Shown piece by piece: positions 3,799 through 16,498 of a stretch of 64,000 nt of DNA. Both the position numbers and the translations under genes were made by a program. Origin of the DNA: Candidatus Zixiibacteriota bacterium. Lineage in GTDB: Bacteria; Zixibacteria; MSB-5A5; GN15; FEB-12. A model generated the notes under the pieces. That model searched no databases and was not told the origin of the DNA. It saw only the letters and a list, made by a program, of their open reading frames with translations. Each line of letters opens with the position of its first letter. Positions within the stretch are counted from its first letter, which is position 1. Location: assembly GCA_024280215.1 (NCBI GenBank), contig JAJRQO010000017.1, forward strand, positions 1 through 64,000. Direction: 5' to 3'.

Positions 3799-4938
3799 TT
3801 ATTGCGAAGGCAGTTTTGGAATTTTCAGAGAGAAAAGCATATCGACAAAAACAATAGCTGCACCCGCTAAAAATGTCGTTTCATATCCAAATTTTATCCA
3901 GAGAATACCGCCAACTATTGGGATGACAACAGCGGTAATATGGTTAGCAGTCATTCCAAATGAAAGACAACCTGTGATATCTTCTGTTGGGGCGATTTTA
4001 CGGAGGTATGATCTAAGTGCCAAAGAAGAACCAAACAACATATTGTCAATGACATAAAGGAACATCAAAAGCGGGAGATAGCTTACATAGGCATATCCGC
4101 AAAAAATAAAGACGAGAAAAAAAGATGATCCTACTAAAATAATTTTTTCACCAAACTTGTCAGAAAGGAATCCGATAATACGTGATGTAAAAATCGTAAT
4201 GAAGAAATTAGCAAACATCAAAATAGATATAACAGTAATATCCAAATCGTAATTTTTTACCAGTAAGAAAATTGCAAACGTCGTAAAAATATGACGGCGG
4301 CACCCTCGTAAAAATGAAAGAATATAATAGAGAGTATATTTTTTCTTTATTTTAATTTTACGGTTTTCTTCTTTACCTCTATTTGATGGTAAGGCGTAAC
4401 TTAAATATGCCCCGATTGTCAAGACAATCCCACCGATGATAAAATAAATCATTTTGTAATCTAAAACAAATGTAAGAAGTACTATCAGTCCAGCACCAAC
4501 AAGTCCCGCCATTGATTCGTATGATTGCAGTTTCCCCTGTACTTTACCAAGTTTATGATTCTCAGCAAGAAGCAAAAGTTGTGACGAGTTGGTTGGTTCA
4601 AAATAATGGAAGCCAAACGACATAAGCATAGTTGCACCAGCAAGCATGAGCAATGAAGATGAAAGTCCGCAAAGAATAAGACCGAGTCCGACAACAACTA
4701 TAGAGACCGAAGCTATTTTTGATTCGGTAAAATAAATTGCCAAGGCTCCGACACCGAACGCGAGCAAACCTGGAATTTCACGTACCGATTGGATGACGCC
4801 AACATCAACAGATGATGCGTCGAACATATCAACGGCAAAATTATTGAAAAGTATTCTCCATGCAGAGAAACCACCCCACATGATAACAGCTGAAAATGTA
4901 ATAGTTGCAAATGATATTTCTTTGATTTTCAAATTCAT
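3799..4938 (-). CDS. Major facilitator superfamily transporter
   Basis: About 379 residues with roughly twelve hydrophobic segments separated by short loops and a basic cytoplasmic loop in the middle (KGKEENRKIKIKKKYT, about residues 200-215), the 6+6 layout of MFS permeases. The conserved loop between segments 8 and 9 (GFLSDKFGEK) is the MFS G-x-x-x-D-R/K motif. The substrate cannot be told. I prefer the ATG at 4938 to an upstream TTG at 4974; neither has a convincing ribosome site. Confidence 0.82.
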   Translation of the reverse strand: MNLKIKEISFATITFSAVIMWGGFSAWRILFNNFAVDMFDASSVDVGVIQSVREIPGLLAFGVGALAIYFTESKIASVSIVVVGLGLILCGLSSSLLMLAGATMLMSFGFHYFEPTNSSQLLLLAENHKLGKVQGKLQSYESMAGLVGAGLIVLLTFVLDYKMIYFIIGGIVLTIGAYLSYALPSNRGKEENRKIKIKKKYTLYYILSFLRGCRRHIFTTFAIFLLVKNYDLDITVISILMFANFFITIFTSRIIGFLSDKFGEKIILVGSSFFLVFIFCGYAYVSYLPLLMFLYVIDNMLFGSSLALRSYLRKIAPTEDITGCLSFGMTANHITAVVIPIVGGILWIKFGYETTFLAGAAIVFVDMLFSLKIPKLPSQ

Positions 4939-7372: not shown

Positions 7373-8782
7373 CTATTTGCCGACATATTCTGAGATATAA
7401 ATTTGACCGTTTTCTTGACGAACGACACATTTTTGTCCTTCGGTGTTAAACTCACGGTAAACAAGTCCAAACGATGCTTTCACTCCAGGGTAGACAATTT
7501 TTTCTGCTACAATTTGGGCATCATCTAATTTTTTCAATTCGATTTTAATAGTTTCTATTTCTTCATCAAGTTTTTTCAGATTCTCAGGCAAATCGGTATT
7601 AAATTCTTTAAGCTTATTCATGACTTCAACTTTATCAGCAGGTAATTTATTATCGAGTTTTAAACGAACTAAGCCAACGAGCACTTCTTTAATACGCTCT
7701 CCATCGGCAGTCAATCGTGCTTGCTCTTGTATACAATCATGATAATTTTTCATAAGTTCAGCGTTATATGCTACAACAAGTTCAGTAAAAGTTCCAGATT
7801 CAGAACCTAAGTAACTCGCTCTAATCTCTTTTTTTGCTTTTGCAACCCCACCAACAATTTTACCTTTAGGACCTTTGACAATAATATTTCCTTGTGATTC
7901 AATATGACAATTGATGGCTTCTCCACCAATTATAACATCTCCTCCAGCAATTATTTTTTGTCCCTCTGCAAATTTGACATAAATTTCACCGCCCGCTTTC
8001 ATAACACCATCACCTTTGCCAAAGAAACCACCTTTGACCATAATATTACCTTTAACATCTAAATTGGCATCTTGCACATTGCTGTTGACTTCTAAGTCAC
8101 CATCTGTTTTTATAGAAAATCCTGTCTTCACAGTCCCATTCACCCGAACAGAACCACGACAGTCAAGATTTCCGACATTAAAATCAACATCTCCTTTAAT
8201 CAGCATAACATCATTGACAGAGACTTTGTTGTAAAGGAACACAATCGCTCCAGAACATTTTGCTGTAAGAGTATTACCATCTTCCGAAATTTCAGTATTA
8301 GCACCATTTTTAAACGGTAAATTTCTTCCATCAGGCCCCTGAATTTTCTTACCAAAGACATTGGTACCAGGAATACCAGACTGTGCAGGAATACGAGTAA
8401 CTAAAACTCCTCCTTCTTCAACATTTTGAATAAAATTTATATTTTTATAATCAATATGTCCGTCATCATCGACTTGTGGTTTGTAATCCCGAGCAGTATC
8501 AAAATGAAATTTGAAAACTGAATTGTTTCCACGTTTTGGTTTTTCACCATCAGCAATTTTTGTTGGATTATTATAAATATTATCTTTTAAGATAGTGTGA
8601 ATAATTTCTTCATTGATACCAAAGACAATGCCTTCGTCATCTATCGCTGACATAATTTCATCAAATGTCGCTGGAGATTCATTTGCGAGTGGCTTCTTAA
8701 TAATAATACTCACAGACATAGAATCTTTAGCAACAGTAATCTGAAATTTAACTTGTGTATTGGTCGTTTTTGAAATACTCAT
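7373..8782 (-). CDS. FapA/DUF342 domain protein
   Basis: About 469 residues. The N-terminal 150 residues are a variable domain. The middle (about 150-330) is the FapA (DUF342) right-handed beta-helix, with repeated turns such as GDVDFNVGNLDCRGSVRVNG and GGDVIIGG. The C-terminal part is a predicted coiled coil (about 345-430) followed by a short beta segment. FapA proteins are often found with flagellar/motility genes; their exact role is poorly defined. I chose the second ATG (8782) because the GGAG ribosome site would otherwise lie inside the reading frame right after the first ATG. The response regulator gene upstream ends next to it, so the two are translated together. Confidence 0.85.
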   Translation of the reverse strand: MSISKTTNTQVKFQITVAKDSMSVSIIIKKPLANESPATFDEIMSAIDDEGIVFGINEEIIHTILKDNIYNNPTKIADGEKPKRGNNSVFKFHFDTARDYKPQVDDDGHIDYKNINFIQNVEEGGVLVTRIPAQSGIPGTNVFGKKIQGPDGRNLPFKNGANTEISEDGNTLTAKCSGAIVFLYNKVSVNDVMLIKGDVDFNVGNLDCRGSVRVNGTVKTGFSIKTDGDLEVNSNVQDANLDVKGNIMVKGGFFGKGDGVMKAGGEIYVKFAEGQKIIAGGDVIIGGEAINCHIESQGNIIVKGPKGKIVGGVAKAKKEIRASYLGSESGTFTELVVAYNAELMKNYHDCIQEQARLTADGERIKEVLVGLVRLKLDNKLPADKVEVMNKLKEFNTDLPENLKKLDEEIETIKIELKKLDDAQIVAEKIVYPGVKASFGLVYREFNTEGQKCVVRQENGQIYISEYVGK

Positions 8783-8794
8783 AGGAATCTCCAT

Positions 8795-9199
8795 TTAAGT
8801 AATTTCATTATTCACTTTATTCGAAGAAAGTAAACGCCAATATGCACGTTCTACGACTAATGAAATCTCATAACTCTTAAATGGTTTTGTAATATATTCA
8901 TCAGCACCTAACAAAAGGGCATCTTTCACAGTATATGTATCTCCATATGCTGTCATGATTATAATTCCTAACCCTTCATATTCACTTTTAATATTTTTTA
9001 ATAATTCAAATCCATTCATTCGCGGCATCTTCATATCAGATATAACAATGTCCACTTTATTGTTACTAAGTTTTTCAAGAGCATTAACACCATTAATTGC
9101 AGTTATAATATTATAACCTTCACGTGAGAGAATTTTCCCAAGCAAATCACGCATCATCTCTTCATCGTCAACAACTAATATTGTAAAATTGTTCTTCAA
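8795..9199 (-). CDS. CheY-like single-domain response regulator
   Basis: 134 residues, one receiver domain and no output domain. Acidic pocket D11/D12, phospho-acceptor D55 in VISDMKMPRMNG, switch Thr in IIMTAYGD and conserved Lys in YITKPF. The start is TTG (9199), supported by AAGGAA about 8 nt upstream. It probably acts by protein-protein contact. It lies between a second receiver protein and the FapA-like gene. Confidence 0.93.
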   Translation of the reverse strand: MKNNFTILVVDDEEMMRDLLGKILSREGYNIITAINGVNALEKLSNNKVDIVISDMKMPRMNGFELLKNIKSEYEGLGIIIMTAYGDTYTVKDALLLGADEYITKPFKSYEISLVVERAYWRLLSSNKVNNEIT

Positions 9200-9232
9200 A
9201 ATAAATTCCTTATAATATAACTGAAAGAGAAA

Positions 9233-9649
9233 TTAGCGGGTTAAAGTTGATGTTAACTCCGAAATAAAACTTTCAAGCATAATCGGTTTATACATTACTC
9301 GGCAAGCCCCTAAAACACCCGCTTCATTAATAAGTTTATCAGTTGCATTTCCTGTTATAATCATAATAGGAACTTTTGGAGTGATTTTTTTCAACTCTAC
9401 CAAAACATCCAAGCCAGAGAGCTCTGGCATAATAAGATCAAGAGTAATCAAGTCATATGATTTCTTACTTGCTTTTTCAATAGCTTCATTTCCATCATTT
9501 GCAAGTTCGACAGAAAAAGCATCCGTCAATTCACAAAAATCTTTAAACACTTCTTGAACCCATTTTTCATCATCTACAATAAGTACTTTAAATGGCTCAC
9601 CTCTATCTTGTGCCAATTGGTTCAGTTTGTCAAAATTAACTAAGGTCAT
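9233..9649 (-). CDS. CheY-like response regulator with N-terminal extension
   Basis: 138 residues: a 20-residue N-terminal extension, then a receiver domain. Acidic pair D26/D27, phospho-acceptor D71 in LITLDLIMPELSG, switch Thr in MIITGN and Lys in VMYKPI. There is no DNA-binding or enzymatic output domain. It is the first gene after a good sigma-28-like promoter and is followed by a second receiver and a FapA-like protein, which suggests a motility-class signalling unit. Confidence 0.92.
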   Translation of the reverse strand: MTLVNFDKLNQLAQDRGEPFKVLIVDDEKWVQEVFKDFCELTDAFSVELANDGNEAIEKASKKSYDLITLDLIMPELSGLDVLVELKKITPKVPIMIITGNATDKLINEAGVLGACRVMYKPIMLESFISELTSTLTR

Positions 9650-9684
9650 ATTTCACTCTTGAATTTATGAGTTATCTTCATACA

Positions 9685-9706
9685 TAAGAGAGTGATTTCT
9701 CTCTTA
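9685..9706. promoter_or_regulatory. Inverted repeat in the leader of the response regulator gene
   Basis: Perfect 8-bp arms TAAGAGAG (9685-9692) and CTCTCTTA (9699-9706) with a 6-bp centre. It lies between the sigma-28-like box and the start codon at 9649. There is no T-run on the minus strand after it, so it is not an ordinary terminator; it could be an operator or a leader hairpin. Confidence 0.5.
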
Positions 9707-9712
9707 ATATTT

Positions 9713-9739
9713 ATATCGGTCAAAATTTCAAATTGCTTA
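9713..9739 (-). promoter_or_regulatory. Candidate sigma-28 (FliA) promoter
   Basis: Minus strand TAAG (9739-9736), 15-bp spacer, ACCGATAT (9720-9713). The flagellar sigma-28 consensus is TAAA-N15-GCCGATAA, so the spacing is exact and the -10 differs at two positions. It would drive the response regulator/response regulator/FapA-like genes. Motif match only. Confidence 0.5.
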
Positions 9740-9765
9740 GATTGATAATTTATCCAGCTTCAAGG

Positions 9766-10119
9766 CTAAATCTTGTACTCACCTTTAACACCAAGTTCAT
9801 CAAGTATTTGCCTACATTGCGAGAGGATGGAATTCAACTTTACTTCAAGTTGATCTGAACTAAATTTCCCCGAGGGGACATCATACACCATCGTTTCTTT
9901 ATTTTTAGCCGCATTTATAATACGAGTTAATTCCTGGCCGACTTTTACAGCACCATTAACCAATTTTATAAACTCTGGTTCCATTTTTGAAAGCTGCTTG
10001 GAGTCATTTTTACTTTTTGCTAAATAAATTGCGAGATTGACAGCGATTTCTTTTACTTCTTCGTTTAAGTTTTCAACAATGTCAATAATGTCATTATTAT
10101 TTCCAAAAGTTTTGTTCAT
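9766..10119 (-). CDS. Small helical protein of unknown function
   Basis: 117 residues, almost entirely predicted helix, no signal peptide and no membrane segment. I recognise no family. It begins 4 bp after the stop of the GAF/H-box gene and is followed, after a 116-bp gap with its own promoter, by two receiver proteins. Its size and helical content are compatible with a phosphotransfer or scaffold role, but there is no conserved HPt histidine motif, so that is only a guess from context. Confidence 0.6.
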   Translation of the reverse strand: MNKTFGNNNDIIDIVENLNEEVKEIAVNLAIYLAKSKNDSKQLSKMEPEFIKLVNGAVKVGQELTRIINAAKNKETMVYDVPSGKFSSDQLEVKLNSILSQCRQILDELGVKGEYKI

Positions 10120-10123
10120 ATTT

Positions 10124-10951
10124 TCATCGACCTACATCTGTAAGAGGTTTGGTAGTTCGTTTATTCAAAATAGAATTTAAATTCAAGATTTTATTATTTG
10201 AATCATTGATTCTCTTTGCGGCAGTTTCTATTTTTTTTAATCTTGAAAGTGTTTTTTGGTTAAAATTATTTTTTCCTATAAGAAGACATTGTAAATTCCC
10301 AATAATAATTGAAAGAGAGTTATTAATACCATGAATAACTTCTGAAGTTTCATTCGAAATTTCATCTATTGTACAATCAGCGACCACTTGTTTTTTTAAT
10401 GATGTCATGTATTCAATCGATTCTTGATGAGTTTCATTTACTGAATTATATTTTTTCAATAAGCTGTAATGTTTCATAAGAAGTGACAATAATGGTGCAA
10501 CAGATTCAATCGTTTTAATATCTGCTTTAACAAATTCATTCTTAGTAAAGCTACCCAAATTGATAACCCCATATAGCTTCTCATCTTTTAATATAGGAAC
10601 TGATAAAAACGCAGCAAAATCTGTTTCAGGGTCATAACTTTTCATCTTAGTACGGTCAGCAATAATTATTGCATGGGCAGTATCAGCAGACCAACCTGAG
10701 AGTCCATCGCCAGATTCAATTTGTAGACCTGTTAAAATTTCAACATCTTGATTGTAGTAATCAACTTTTTCTAATTTATTGTTTTTTTCATCAAGTAAAT
10801 ATATTGTTCCCGCATCAAATTTCAAATGTTCCTTCAATAGCTCAAATACAGCATCAAACAAATTGTCTGAATCAACATCAATCAACATGAGAGAATCTAA
10901 AAGATTACCATCTTGCTTAGTTTTTCTATTTGTCATATCTAAAGCAGTCAT
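10124..10951 (-). CDS. GAF-domain protein with an H-box but no kinase ATPase domain
   Basis: 275 residues. A GAF sensory domain (about 20-160; GLSGW, SVPIL and YGVINLG strands) is followed by a helical linker and a helix pair resembling the dimerisation/phosphoacceptor domain of histidine kinases, with H207 in HGINNSLSIIIGN. The usual acidic residue right after His is Gly here, and the chain ends about 70 residues later, so the whole HATPase_c domain (N, G1 and G2 boxes) is absent. It could be a phosphotransfer hub or a regulator that dimerises with a kinase elsewhere. Two receiver proteins lie just downstream. Confidence 0.8.
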   Translation of the reverse strand: MTALDMTNRKTKQDGNLLDSLMLIDVDSDNLFDAVFELLKEHLKFDAGTIYLLDEKNNKLEKVDYYNQDVEILTGLQIESGDGLSGWSADTAHAIIIADRTKMKSYDPETDFAAFLSVPILKDEKLYGVINLGSFTKNEFVKADIKTIESVAPLLSLLMKHYSLLKKYNSVNETHQESIEYMTSLKKQVVADCTIDEISNETSEVIHGINNSLSIIIGNLQCLLIGKNNFNQKTLSRLKKIETAAKRINDSNNKILNLNSILNKRTTKPLTDVGR

Positions 10952-10952
10952 A

Positions 10953-11558
10953 TTATCTTAAACCTAAATACACTTTAGTTTTCTTTTTTAGCTCAACAAC
11001 AAATTTATCTTCAAGCTTACTGAAAAATCTAATTTTTTCTGGAGCAGTAAGATGCAAATCAGGGTCATTGATATCATCATCCATAGTAGCTTGAAAAATC
11101 CGAGAGCTTTTTTCTTCGACTCTAAACTGTTTTGCAATCAGTAACTTTCCTCTATCAACATCGAATAGACGAACTTCCCCCTCTATCACGCCGTAGGTTT
11201 GATATTTGTGAAATACGAGTGGAATATGGAAAGACTTTCTTTTCTCAATTCTTTCGCTTTGGACATCAACAATCATAATAAATCGCCCACCAAACTCTTT
11301 ACCCCACTCAAGCAATAATTCATTATTATAAAAATCCTCAGGGAATTCAGGAATAGTTATTTTATCATCTTGAATCATCTTAACACGCATATTAGCTTGC
11401 CTTGAAAAAGATTGCAAAATTTTTGAGTCTAATTTTGAATTCGTCCATGGAATTTCTGGTGTAAATACTTTTATCGCAATTTGTTTATTCACAGAAACAG
11501 CCTGCAACGCTACAACAGAAATAAATAGGACAAAGACAGCCACTACATATTTTTTCAT
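10953..11558 (-). CDS. Exported protein of unknown function
   Basis: 201 residues with a clear signal peptide (hydrophobic 5-20, AxA-like site near LQAVS). The mature part has mixed beta strands (FGGRFIMIVDVQSERIE, YGVIEGEVRLFDVDRGKLL), reminiscent of periplasmic proteins that build a small alpha/beta domain, but I do not recognise the family. It sits between a PilZ gene and the GAF gene with spacing of 15 bp and 1 bp, so it is probably co-transcribed with the motility-associated block. Confidence 0.75.
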   Translation of the reverse strand: MKKYVVAVFVLFISVVALQAVSVNKQIAIKVFTPEIPWTNSKLDSKILQSFSRQANMRVKMIQDDKITIPEFPEDFYNNELLLEWGKEFGGRFIMIVDVQSERIEKRKSFHIPLVFHKYQTYGVIEGEVRLFDVDRGKLLIAKQFRVEEKSSRIFQATMDDDINDPDLHLTAPEKIRFFSKLEDKFVVELKKKTKVYLGLR

Positions 11559-11573
11559 ATCAATCTACTTTTC

Positions 11574-12074
11574 TTATTTTTTAAACAAATAGTTTTCAAG
11601 AGTTTCATGAATACTGTCATGAAAATTTGTTACATTCTCTTGTAAAATTTCAATTTCAGGTTGAGATAAACGATCTTTCAGCAATTCTGGAGATAAGAAT
11701 TCTATACCAACAAGATTACTTTTTTCGTCGATATCAATTCGTTTCACTATACCCAAAACCGAATCAATTGACTCGGTGTCTTGTATCGTAAATTTCATCA
11801 ACAAGAAATCACGCTCAGCTACAGCTTCGTTTATGTCTATTAAGACTCCATTTGCGGAAATATTTAAAATAGTTCCTTCAATAGTGTAGGTCATTTCATC
11901 ATCAATATTCTCAAGTTTATCTTTGAGATTTCGAATTGAAATTGGAGCAGAAATTTCCACTCGAACGAATCGTCGTTTGTTCTCTTTTTGTAGTTTAAAC
12001 GGTTTTTTTACAAGCACATCTGAATCATCAATTTCGATATCTGAGATATACTTTACTTTTGTTTTGTCACTCAT
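11574..12074 (-). CDS. PilZ-domain protein (c-di-GMP receptor)
   Basis: 166 residues: a short N-terminal region and one PilZ domain. It has both ligand motifs: RRFVR (RxxxR) at about 34-38 and NISANG ([D/N]xSxxG) at about 74-79. PilZ proteins bind cyclic di-GMP and alter flagellar, secretion or polysaccharide machinery. The gene is the third of three consecutive PilZ genes, 3 bp after the previous stop. Confidence 0.9.
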   Translation of the reverse strand: MSDKTKVKYISDIEIDDSDVLVKKPFKLQKENKRRFVRVEISAPISIRNLKDKLENIDDEMTYTIEGTILNISANGVLIDINEAVAERDFLLMKFTIQDTESIDSVLGIVKRIDIDEKSNLVGIEFLSPELLKDRLSQPEIEILQENVTNFHDSIHETLENYLFKK

Positions 12075-12077
12075 TAC

Positions 12078-12836
12078 TCACTCCTCCCTTTCTGATAAAT
12101 CTTGTGCTAAGAATTTATCAAATCGGTTTCTATGTTTGATAGTGTAATCAAAGGCTTTAGGTGGTATTTTTTTCATAACTAATGATGAAAAATAATTTTC
12201 TTTTTGTTCATTTATGATAAATTGGATTCCTAATTGATAATTAAAGCTATTAATTGATTGTGAATGTTTCACTTGCCCAATAAGCAAACTTGGCAGATGT
12301 TTATTGGCATAGTCAATATTTATGAGCATAAATGTTTTGTCAGTAATTTTAGATGGTATAGGTAATAAAATTCCACCACTTGAAATATTAAGTGCTTTTA
12401 CCTCTAACCATCGAAGTTTCGACATGTCTGACTCTATTATTCTTTGTACAGGTAAAATTGCACATCGAACATGACCATTGTAAGGGTATCGTTTAAACAT
12501 TCTTCTGCTCAGTGGAACAACATTTTCATCGAGCAAAATATTAACTCTTCCACTTATAGTTCTATATAGTTTTGCTTTCGAAGATAATCTTTGACCTTTG
12601 TAATCAAATTGTACTACCACGGTTTGATCATTGTCAATTTGGCACAGATCGCTATTTTCGCCTGAGCGGTCTAAGGAAATTATATTTTCATGCACCATAA
12701 CAACTTTTGTATATAATGATTTATTGTCTAATTGACTTGAAAGTACTAACATCTCTCTGCCTACTAAAATTGATAATTCTAGATTGACAGATTTCATACT
12801 ATTGTTAGTTCCACCAGTTTGTTGAGTCGTTATCAT
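12078..12836 (-). CDS. PilZ-domain protein (c-di-GMP receptor)
   Basis: About 252 residues. An N-terminal beta-rich domain like the YcgR N-domain precedes a PilZ domain with the RxxxR motif in RRMFKR and the second motif NISSGG. I place the start at the ATG at 12836, one base after the stop of the upstream PilZ gene and about 10 nt from AAAAGGA; an upstream in-frame start at 12884 would overlap that gene by 47 bp. Expected to sense c-di-GMP. Confidence 0.87.
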   Translation of the reverse strand: MITTQQTGGTNNSMKSVNLELSILVGREMLVLSSQLDNKSLYTKVVMVHENIISLDRSGENSDLCQIDNDQTVVVQFDYKGQRLSSKAKLYRTISGRVNILLDENVVPLSRRMFKRYPYNGHVRCAILPVQRIIESDMSKLRWLEVKALNISSGGILLPIPSKITDKTFMLINIDYANKHLPSLLIGQVKHSQSINSFNYQLGIQFIINEQKENYFSSLVMKKIPPKAFDYTIKHRNRFDKFLAQDLSEREE

Positions 12837-12837
12837 G

Positions 12838-13572
12838 TTACAAAAGTCCTTTTTTCCTTTGTTCAATTTGTTGGTTAAATACAAATGAAATCAATTTTTC
12901 TTGATCAGTTGTGCTGAAACTGTTAGACAATCCTTTAATCATACCAATCGGAAGATTATTCTCATAACCTGATATTTCATGGGTTGGAATAAGAGCAACA
13001 CCACTCAACCGAGTTTGATTGTCCAAAAGAGTTCGATGCGATTGTCCTAAAACTGGTAGGCAAATATCAAGCTCTTCAAAAAGCTGAATCTTCATAAGTA
13101 GTATTGAATCTTGTTTGACAAAATCTTTTGTCTCAAGTAAAAGTCCACTTCCGCTTATATCCCAAGAATATGAACGGTGCCACTCTTGATTTTCTTTATA
13201 CATCTTATGAAAAAGTGTATACTCAACAGGTGTTGAATAGACAACACGAGCAAACTCTCTTCTTTGAATTCTTCTCACAAAAACAGGATGCGATAAAACA
13301 TATCTTTCAATTCCATCAACATTTTTTTTATGAATTGTTGAACGGAAATGATAAATAGCATCCGATTTTGTTACTGAAATAATTACGTTGCAATTATCTC
13401 TCAGCAACACTTCACCCTTCAAAATTTCTGGCTTTGTGATTTCCATTCCATCTTCAACAAAATCCTCAATCCGTGCTGTATAAACTCCAGCATTGATATC
13501 ATCTGATGTTAAGATTTCAATTTTTTCCCAAACAATTAATGGTTCGGGAATTTTTGGAATAGATAATTGCAT
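12838..13572 (-). CDS. YcgR-like PilZ-domain protein
   Basis: 244 residues. The N-terminal domain (about 1-90) resembles the YcgR/flagellar brake N-domain. The PilZ domain (about 95-215) has the c-di-GMP motifs RREFAR and DISGSG. Proteins of this build bind the flagellar motor and slow it when c-di-GMP is high. It lies 6 bp after the DUF2225 gene and directly precedes another PilZ gene, downstream of fliA. Confidence 0.88.
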   Translation of the reverse strand: MQLSIPKIPEPLIVWEKIEILTSDDINAGVYTARIEDFVEDGMEITKPEILKGEVLLRDNCNVIISVTKSDAIYHFRSTIHKKNVDGIERYVLSHPVFVRRIQRREFARVVYSTPVEYTLFHKMYKENQEWHRSYSWDISGSGLLLETKDFVKQDSILLMKIQLFEELDICLPVLGQSHRTLLDNQTRLSGVALIPTHEISGYENNLPIGMIKGLSNSFSTTDQEKLISFVFNQQIEQRKKGLL

Positions 13573-15625: not shown

Positions 15626-16498
15626 TTAACCAGTTAAAGCGAATTTCTCTCGTACCATGTTTCTCAGTTTCATAACTGCCTTTGTATGAATCTGCGAGAC
15701 ACGTGATTCAGAGATAGTCATTACTTAGCCGATTTCTTTGAGTGTTAGCTCTTCAAAATAATAGAGAGCAATAACAAGTTTTTCCTGTTTAGTTAGTTTG
15801 TTAATCGCTACTCCTAAAAATGATTTTAACTCTGCTTTTTCTAAATCACCTAAGACTGAAACTGTTTCATGGTCAATCACCGTTTCAATCCTCGGCACCT
15901 GGCGGTTATCATCTTCGCGATAGATAACTTCGTCCAAAGATAAAATATGTGTTCCAGAAATATCACCCAAGGCAGCATGCATTTCTGGCATAGTAAGGTT
16001 CATTTGTTTTGCAAGCTCTGTTTTCTCAGGTTTTCTACCATGAATATTTTCAAGAGCTGTTAAGGCTCTATCAATTTCACGTGCTTTAGCACGAGTAGAA
16101 CGAGGTACCCAATCCAAGGCACGAAGTTCATCCAAGATTGCACCACGAATTCGAGTAACTGCATACGTTTCAAATTTAACGCCTCTTGCAGGATCGTAAT
16201 TTTTAAAGGCTTCAATCAAACCAATTACACCTGTTGAAACTAAATCATTGATTTCAACTGAGCGTGGAAAACCCATCGCCATTCTTGTAGCAACATTCTG
16301 AACAAGCGGAACATATTTATCAAGAAGTTTACGGCGACGTTCTGGAGAACGGTCATTCCAATAACGAGTCCATTCCTGAGGTGAGACATCCCACTTCTTG
16401 ACCCGTTTTGGTTTTACAGGCGTTTCCAGAGCTTTTGAGACCGTAGTTTGTTTAGCCATTTTGCTTTTTTTCTTCTTTTCTTTTAGTGTGCTAACCAT
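15626..16498 (-). pseudogene. fliA: Flagellar sigma-28 factor fliA interrupted by an in-frame TAA
   Basis: The intact frame runs 257 residues: a Lys-rich N-terminal extension, sigma region 2 (LVSTGVIGLIEAFKNYDP, FETYAVTRIRGAILDELR), region 3 and the start of region 4 (LYYFEELTLKEIG). It then meets TAA at 15727-15725. The same frame continues without shift for 32 residues reading VMTISESRVSQIHTKAV and onward, the canonical sigma-28 recognition helix, to a proper TAA at 15628-15626. Homologues have Glu, Gln or Ala at the stop position, so a single base change (for example GAA to TAA) explains it. The truncated product lacks the -35-binding helix. Confidence 0.88.

Follow-up and report, generated by a model that had tools for sequence, protein, structure and literature searches.

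Among the described systems closest to the GAF-DHp protein reported here is PhyT (PhyP) of Sphingomonas melonis, whose DHp has the His and the Asn at +4 without the acid at +1 (HRxxN) and which works with a stand-alone receiver (PMC5898713), as we propose for GAF-DHp. With this signature and a degenerate ATPase, PhyT was first taken to be a phosphatase and is described as moving phosphate between two response regulators and as showing no phosphatase activity in vitro (PMC5898713). Spo0B and ChpT are dimeric DHp phosphotransferases thought to be derived from histidine kinases (PMC5898713; for ChpT, PMC3433190). The HisKA phosphatases CrdS, NtrB, and EnvZ have Asn or Thr at +4 and a DHp that docks receivers; kinase activity of HisKA proteins depends on the +1 acid, which the phosphatase does not need, and phosphatase activity depends on the Asn at +4 and is aided by a His that is not essential to it (PMC3510030). 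CrdS with this acid changed to Gly (E372G) is still phosphatase-competent, and DHp by itself suffices for phosphatase activity in NtrB and EnvZ (PMC3510030). In the split kinase CheA3/CheA4 of Rhodobacter sphaeroides, the acceptor and the ATP-using parts are on two proteins, with a phosphatase on the acceptor (PMC3591291). Lastly, the FliA-FapA submodule of flgV operons has the sigma-28, FapA, and FlhG neighborhood seen here, but lacks GAF-DHp, receivers, and HEL117 in the portion of PMC11607428 that we draw on.

GAF-DHp differs from each of these. PhyT is membrane-bound, retains a degenerate ATPase, and acts in the general stress response, whereas GAF-DHp has a GAF sensor and no ATPase. Spo0B and ChpT retain an ATPase-like C-terminal domain; to our knowledge, neither has a GAF domain or is a flagellar-operon gene. 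GAF-DHp shares with all three a His without a working kinase domain, and their degenerate ATPase-like domain is absent from it; in relatives, a neighboring protein (HK596, below) has one. CheA3/CheA4 is of the CheA type with a P1 domain, whereas the protein here is of the HisKA type. CrdS, NtrB, and EnvZ are full kinases, unlike GAF-DHp, which has the corresponding Asn (Asn211).

Gene order at the locus

The window, meaning the whole stretch of 64,000 nucleotides analyzed, carries the entire cluster on its minus strand: FlhA, FlhF, FlhG, a FliA-type sigma factor, small and conserved proteins, and three PilZ-type proteins, then a 201-aa protein, GAF-DHp, HEL117, two stand-alone receivers, and FapA. 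A sequence-only reading of this DNA had described a GAF protein without an ATPase domain, a helical 117-residue protein, two output-less receivers, and a FapA protein placed downstream of flagellar genes, and each of these elements was recovered:

7373 to 8794 (frame) or 7373 to 8782 (from the likely start, ATG 8782), minus strand: FapA (FapA 8e-63, FapA_N 3.9e-48)
8795 to 9199, minus strand: REC2, stand-alone receiver with intact phosphorylation residues (Response_reg 4.1e-31)
9233 to 9649, minus strand: REC1, stand-alone receiver with intact phosphorylation residues (Response_reg 4.4e-24)
9713 to 9739, minus strand: sigma-28-like promoter footprint before REC1, core kept in 4/4 genus members
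9766 to 10119, minus strand: HEL117, 117-aa helical protein resembling a chemoreceptor tip
10120 to 10123, minus strand: junction between GAF-DHp and HEL117, 4 nt
10124 to 10951, minus strand: GAF-DHp protein, 275 aa, no ATPase domain
10151 to 10369, minus strand: DHp helical hairpin of GAF-DHp, residues about 195-267 (HisKA 0.002; AlphaFold2 model)
10319 to 10333, minus strand: H-box HGINN, with His207, Gly208 at the place of the acid, and Asn211 at +4
10478 to 10873, minus strand: GAF domain of GAF-DHp, residues 27-158 (Pfam GAF_2 1.8e-15)
10953 to 11558, minus strand: conserved 201-aa protein upstream of GAF-DHp, without a Pfam match
11574 to 13572, minus strand: three PilZ-type proteins (domain search)
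15725 to 16498, minus strand: FliA-type sigma factor, frame ending early at TAA

The FapA gene, in which Pfam finds both the FapA_N and FapA domains, lies just outside the region 8795-10951 given at the outset. In the FliA gene, an in-frame TAA at 15725-15727 (minus strand) after 257 codons cuts off the last 32 codons, which belong to the sigma-4 region and run on in the same frame past the TAA; the frames of genus relatives are 290-294 residues long. The TAA may be a sequencing error or a real loss.

Domains of the GAF-DHp protein

Behind its GAF domain, GAF-DHp has a HisKA match at residues 203-261 that falls below the Pfam cut-off for the window protein taken singly (E=0.002, 18.5 bits against 26.9), while HisKA is matched at E<=0.01 in 24 of 28 family members (best 2e-11). 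The phosphoacceptor-type His of DHp is present as His207, in an H-box that reads H207-G208-I-N-N211, so that Gly208 stands in place of the +1 acid needed for autokinase activity. No HATPase_c match was found by Pfam in the gene; the protein stops right after the DHp hairpin, and HEL117 starts 4 nt past the stop. The kinase-like His followed by Gly and the missing ATPase domain thus stand as first read. An AlphaFold2 prediction from six sequences (mean pLDDT 76) gives the GAF domain, a single helix at 142-225 that includes His207, and a helix at 232-267; a fold search with this model retrieved mainly GAF domains among the matches listed.

Relatives with a full HATPase domain in the same gene would, according to the sequence-only reading, have made this a truncation. 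None were found: all 70 matches above 125 bits in the phylum lie in open frames of 260-385 codons, which are too short for GAF, DHp, and ATPase together, so these are not truncated kinases. Three observations rule out a full kinase that was truncated or frameshifted: these short frames across the phylum, the lack of an ATPase match, and the 4-nt gap to the next gene. GAF-DHp is a real, conserved protein and no truncation.

A second GAF-DHp protein without an ATPase domain (323 aa, HEVNNP) is encoded at locus L111, positions 3881-4852, on the minus strand of contig C24 of genome G000. In most relatives, too, HisKA-region matches are found apart from the flagellar cluster, within frames some 245-300 codons long. 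Separately, a 113-codon frame at G000:C26:19125-19274 has a HisKA match only (51 bits), with no HATPase on that contig among the matches listed.

Distribution in two phyla

The GAF-DHp family profile reached contigs of Candidatus Zixiibacteriota and Candidatus Neomarinimicrobiota. In the former, matches above 125 bits occur in 70 of 132 genomes, every one without a kinase half, and FlhA is found in 104 of the 132. In the latter, 35 of 245 genomes (the genome group around G132) match at E<=1e-30, again with no kinase half; FlhA is found in 42 of the 245, and all 35 genomes with GAF-DHp are among these 42 (Fisher p=9e-36, ignoring ancestry). Within the window's order (61 genomes), full-length GAF-DHp is present in 39, HEL117 in 56, and HK596 above 170 bits in 28, some of them partial; GAF-DHp and HK596 occur together in 22 and neither occurs in 16. 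GAF-DHp is an old family, conserved in two phyla. In many relatives a kinase or pseudokinase gene adjoins it, and the window genus has none.

GAF-DHp, the FliA-type sigma factor, and PilZ are also kept in seven genomes in which FlhA was not matched (G066, G067, and G103-G107), and the module is therefore not a strictly flagellar one. The loci concerned, L167-L171 (family f13) and L172 and L177 (family f6), have the appearance of a non-flagellar version of the module. In f13, such loci also retain HK596 in intact form, together with a receiver and HEL117.

Partner kinases

In many relatives, a PAS-GAF-DHp protein of about 596 aa (HK596) is placed between GAF-DHp and HEL117, usually accompanied at this junction, in the loci read, by a third receiver. 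Among 38 HK596 proteins read beside GAF-DHp, the His is present in all, and recognizable ATP boxes are absent from 34; the four with intact boxes all belong to f13. Pfam agrees, with HATPase matches of 2e-18 to 5e-24 in 3/3 f13 proteins tested and a significant HATPase in 0/3 tested from f15, f16, and f17. An alignment of 11 HK596 members likewise gave no significant HATPase, with two of the 11 matching at best E=0.025. A search over the 61 order genomes found no HK596 in the window's genome or genus. The partner kinase is intact in f13, a pseudokinase in most relatives, and gone from the window genus.

Relocation of the ATPase half elsewhere in G000 was considered and rejected. The best HK596 match there scores 112 bits and falls in another kinase, of 469 aa, that carries a HATPase of its own. 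A 591-codon GAF frame on contig C18, at first suspected to be a relocated HK596, reads as GAF-GAF plus a C-terminal region, putatively a SpoIIE-type phosphatase.

A split histidine kinase would have an ATP-using partner encoded nearby. The window cluster holds no ATP-using partner gene, whereas in 17 of 20 Neomarinimicrobiota loci read, a PAS-DHp-HATPase kinase is encoded directly upstream of GAF-DHp. HATPase was matched at E 6e-19 to 6e-23 in three of these PAS kinases and at 1.7e-11 in a fourth, whose ATP boxes look degenerate. Five of the 17 have lost their own +1 acid (L185 HS, L191 HT, L192 HA, L194 HQ, and L195 HQ); four of the five keep ATP boxes, those of L192 look degenerate, and the adjoining GAF-DHp reads HE in each case. 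PAS kinases without the acid beside a GAF-DHp of the HE type would suit phosphorylation of GAF-DHp by its neighbor.

Ahead of the PAS kinase, the flagellar operons of Neomarinimicrobiota carry a protein of 89-107 aa (L178:6823-7134, L180:8449-8766, L182:7423-7743, L187:8730-9011, and L195:8768-9034), with a partly common pattern of GRIV or the like followed by LRI.GYNI or the like. The HK596 of genome G009 (L106) carries Asp where the H-box His would be, and no full GAF-DHp ortholog was found in that genome.

Conservation of the H-box residues

Across 37 GAF-DHp sequences of the order, the His is kept in 32, the Asn at +4 in 34, and the +1 acid in 28, while Leu at +6 and Gly at +11 are each kept in 37/37. 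Gly after the His, noted at first sight in the window, holds there but not as a family trait: it is limited to the window genus (4/4), and the family mostly reads HE (one member, L073, has the H-box HRINN). Where HK596 is present (n=20), His is found in 16, Asn in 19, and the acid in all 20; where it is absent (n=17), His is found in 16, Asn in 15, and the acid in eight, being lost in nine. Loss of the acid is associated with absence of HK596 (Fisher p=0.0002; p=0.054 within family f1 alone), an association that is confounded by ancestry. These counts leave out L100, and the tree, on which the minimal losses are six for His, six for Asn, and nine for the acid, leaves out L175, L176, and L100, for doubtful alignment or an in-frame stop. 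Since His and Asn persist without HK596 while the acid is kept in only eight of 17, His and Asn are held and only the kinase-specific acid is released. For the window protein, the residues indicate that kinase activity is excluded, with His and Asn both still held.

It could be that GAF-DHp is a decaying remnant which lost its partner kinase and is drifting toward loss, and the 16 of 61 order genomes lacking both genes, the repeated loss of the acid, and the in-frame stop in the G054 copy (L100) would fit such a course. Given the full-length frames, the conservation of His, Asn, Leu, and Gly described above, and the tight operon spacing, we regard decay as very improbable.

GAF-DHp might otherwise be a non-catalytic sensory or dimerization partner, its DHp pairing with an adjoining kinase, pseudokinase, or receivers and carrying the GAF signal only. 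This is how one could see the many genomes in which it adjoins HK596 or a PAS kinase, and the f13 loci, where an intact kinase stands beside a His-less GAF-DHp in four of five (the fifth kinase is split over frames). However, the window genus and 13 other order genomes keep GAF-DHp without HK596, with the His and Asn frequencies given for these 17, and we think this role unlikely.

Outside the order, the residues vary more. The His is present in 4/4 members of f15; f16 keeps the Asn in 5/5 and the His in 0/5; f13 and f6 together have the His in 0/7; and f17 is degenerate or poorly aligned. In f13, f16, and f6 the His is thus gone in 12/12 members, and in six of those 12 the Asn is gone as well, so GAF-DHp must there have a role needing neither. 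A rule that the His is required only once the partner is dead failed, as f16 has a dead partner and has nevertheless lost the His in 5/5.

The f16 pattern speaks for the possibility that GAF-DHp is a dedicated phosphatase only, a kinase-minus, phosphatase-plus DHp that strips phosphate from REC1 and REC2 with His207 merely assisting. The H-G-x-x-N signature is that of the phosphatase-active CrdS E372G, and in NtrB and EnvZ the DHp alone is enough (PMC3510030). Against this, the His is found in 16/17 genomes without HK596, beyond what an optional residue would need, and PhyT, with a similar signature, is reported to be without phosphatase activity in vitro (PMC5898713). We consider an exclusive phosphatase role rather doubtful.

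The receivers and their upstream region

Both receivers retain their phosphorylation residues, and the acceptor Asp is present across the order in 39/39 for REC1 and 35/35 for REC2. A spacer of 116 nt precedes REC1 and contains TAAGCAAT-N11-ACCGATAT (9739 to 9713, minus strand), which we take to resemble the sigma-28 consensus. Within it, CTAAGCAA and CCGATA are invariant in 4/4 genus members, and the rest of the spacer is poorly conserved or poorly aligned. For the window alone the shuffle result is weak, as 8 of 60 mononucleotide shuffles were equally good, and an exact sigma-28 pattern scan of the window returned nothing at the REC1 spacer. A scan of upstream regions, controlled by mononucleotide shuffles alone and run with a pattern picked after viewing the window sequence, had a mixed outcome. 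A hairpin-forming inverted repeat (9685-9706) lies between the element and the REC1 start codon; it scored as terminator-like on the plus strand, and such sites are no commoner than in shuffles.

HEL117 and a possible link to CheA

The helical protein was first read simply as helical. It is indeed present, and we add that it resembles a chemoreceptor tip. A HEL117 profile (28 members) retrieved chemoreceptor cytoplasmic hairpins from the PDB (best E=3.4e-6), including an ungapped match over the hairpin tip of 2ch7 (E=3.7e-6). Pfam MCPsignal is matched at E<=0.1 in 8 of 28 members (best 3.2e-7); scored singly, the L158 protein reaches 16.5 bits, short of the 34.6 required by Pfam, and no match at E<=0.1 was obtained for five f2 members. 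The predicted model is poor (pLDDT 60.7). The likeness to an MCP signaling domain consists of the ungapped tip match and the CheW neighbor in f2, whereas HEL117 is 117-135 aa long, with no membrane, ligand, or methylation region recognized. An HPt-like role was ruled out, as the HEL117 alignment has no conserved His.

Family f2 has a CheW-like gene immediately after HEL117 in 5/5 loci read (Pfam CheW in 3/3 tested) and, by coordinates, in 6/6 genomes having HEL117. The window's genome has a CheA-like gene on contig C40 (HATPase and CheW domains) as well as CheW proteins. However, CheW was not matched in 8 of the 56 genomes that carry HEL117, and five of these eight are at least 96% complete, which rules CheA out as a donor for all; as a possible phosphate donor reached via HEL117, it is a lead for some genomes only.

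Proposed mechanism and significance

GAF-DHp seems to act most like the PhyT-type and HisKA-phosphatase proteins while, by the comparisons above, belonging to neither. As far as our searches reach, it is new in architecture and flagellar setting, and none of the publications listed by open-access literature searches deals with the module. With no ATPase and no +1 acid, GAF-DHp could not phosphorylate itself, so the phosphate must come from elsewhere, and GAF-DHp probably relays or removes what another kinase has made. The residue roles in HisKA proteins and the PhyT precedent favor a GAF-gated DHp node that exchanges and/or drains phosphate on REC1 and REC2, phosphate that an outside donor would supply. 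We therefore read GAF-DHp, with even confidence, as a DHp node without a kinase half, conserved within a flagellar/sigma-28/PilZ module and performing GAF-gated phosphotransfer and/or phosphatase work on the two receivers. Weighing against this reading are the loss of the His in f13, f16, and f6, the confounding of the acid association by ancestry, the weak HisKA match of the window protein, and the HEL117 genomes without a CheW match.

In this GAF-gated node, the GAF domain would sense a small ligand or partner, and the long helix would relay the signal to a dimeric DHp bundle and set its state; this bundle would dock REC1 and REC2. His207 could then move phosphate from receiver to receiver, as in PhyT and Spo0B, and/or Asn211 could position an attacking water to remove it. 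The donor would lie outside GAF-DHp: the adjoining kinase in relatives, and here an unlinked kinase, possibly CheA recruited via the chemoreceptor-tip-like HEL117. The comparisons above establish the domain composition, the conservation, the history of the partner, and the intact receivers, and from them we infer dimerization, docking, transfer or phosphatase chemistry, ligand, donor, and output. The comparative data agree with the earlier proposal that GAF-DHp is a docking or transfer partner of a kinase from outside, but the residues appear to support a phosphatase role equally, and sequence cannot separate the two. More speculatively, and with a rather low expectation on our part, the locus may be a two-component/chemosensory hybrid in which HEL117 serves as a soluble mini-chemoreceptor tip, joined in some relatives by CheW, and recruits CheA to the two flagellar receivers, and the kinase-less, GAF-gated DHp relays or drains their phosphate; living genomes of the order and its relatives would then show the steps from a kinase-DHp pair to a kinase-free relay.

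These families offer a natural series, with an active partner kinase, a pseudokinase, or no partner, for testing the function of DHp after the kinase half is gone, and the series could show whether proteins that lose the acid needed only by the kinase have turned to phosphotransfer or to phosphatase activity. The locus points to an unstudied layer of flagellar control, with receivers, FapA, and a chemoreceptor-tip-like protein, in uncultured phyla.
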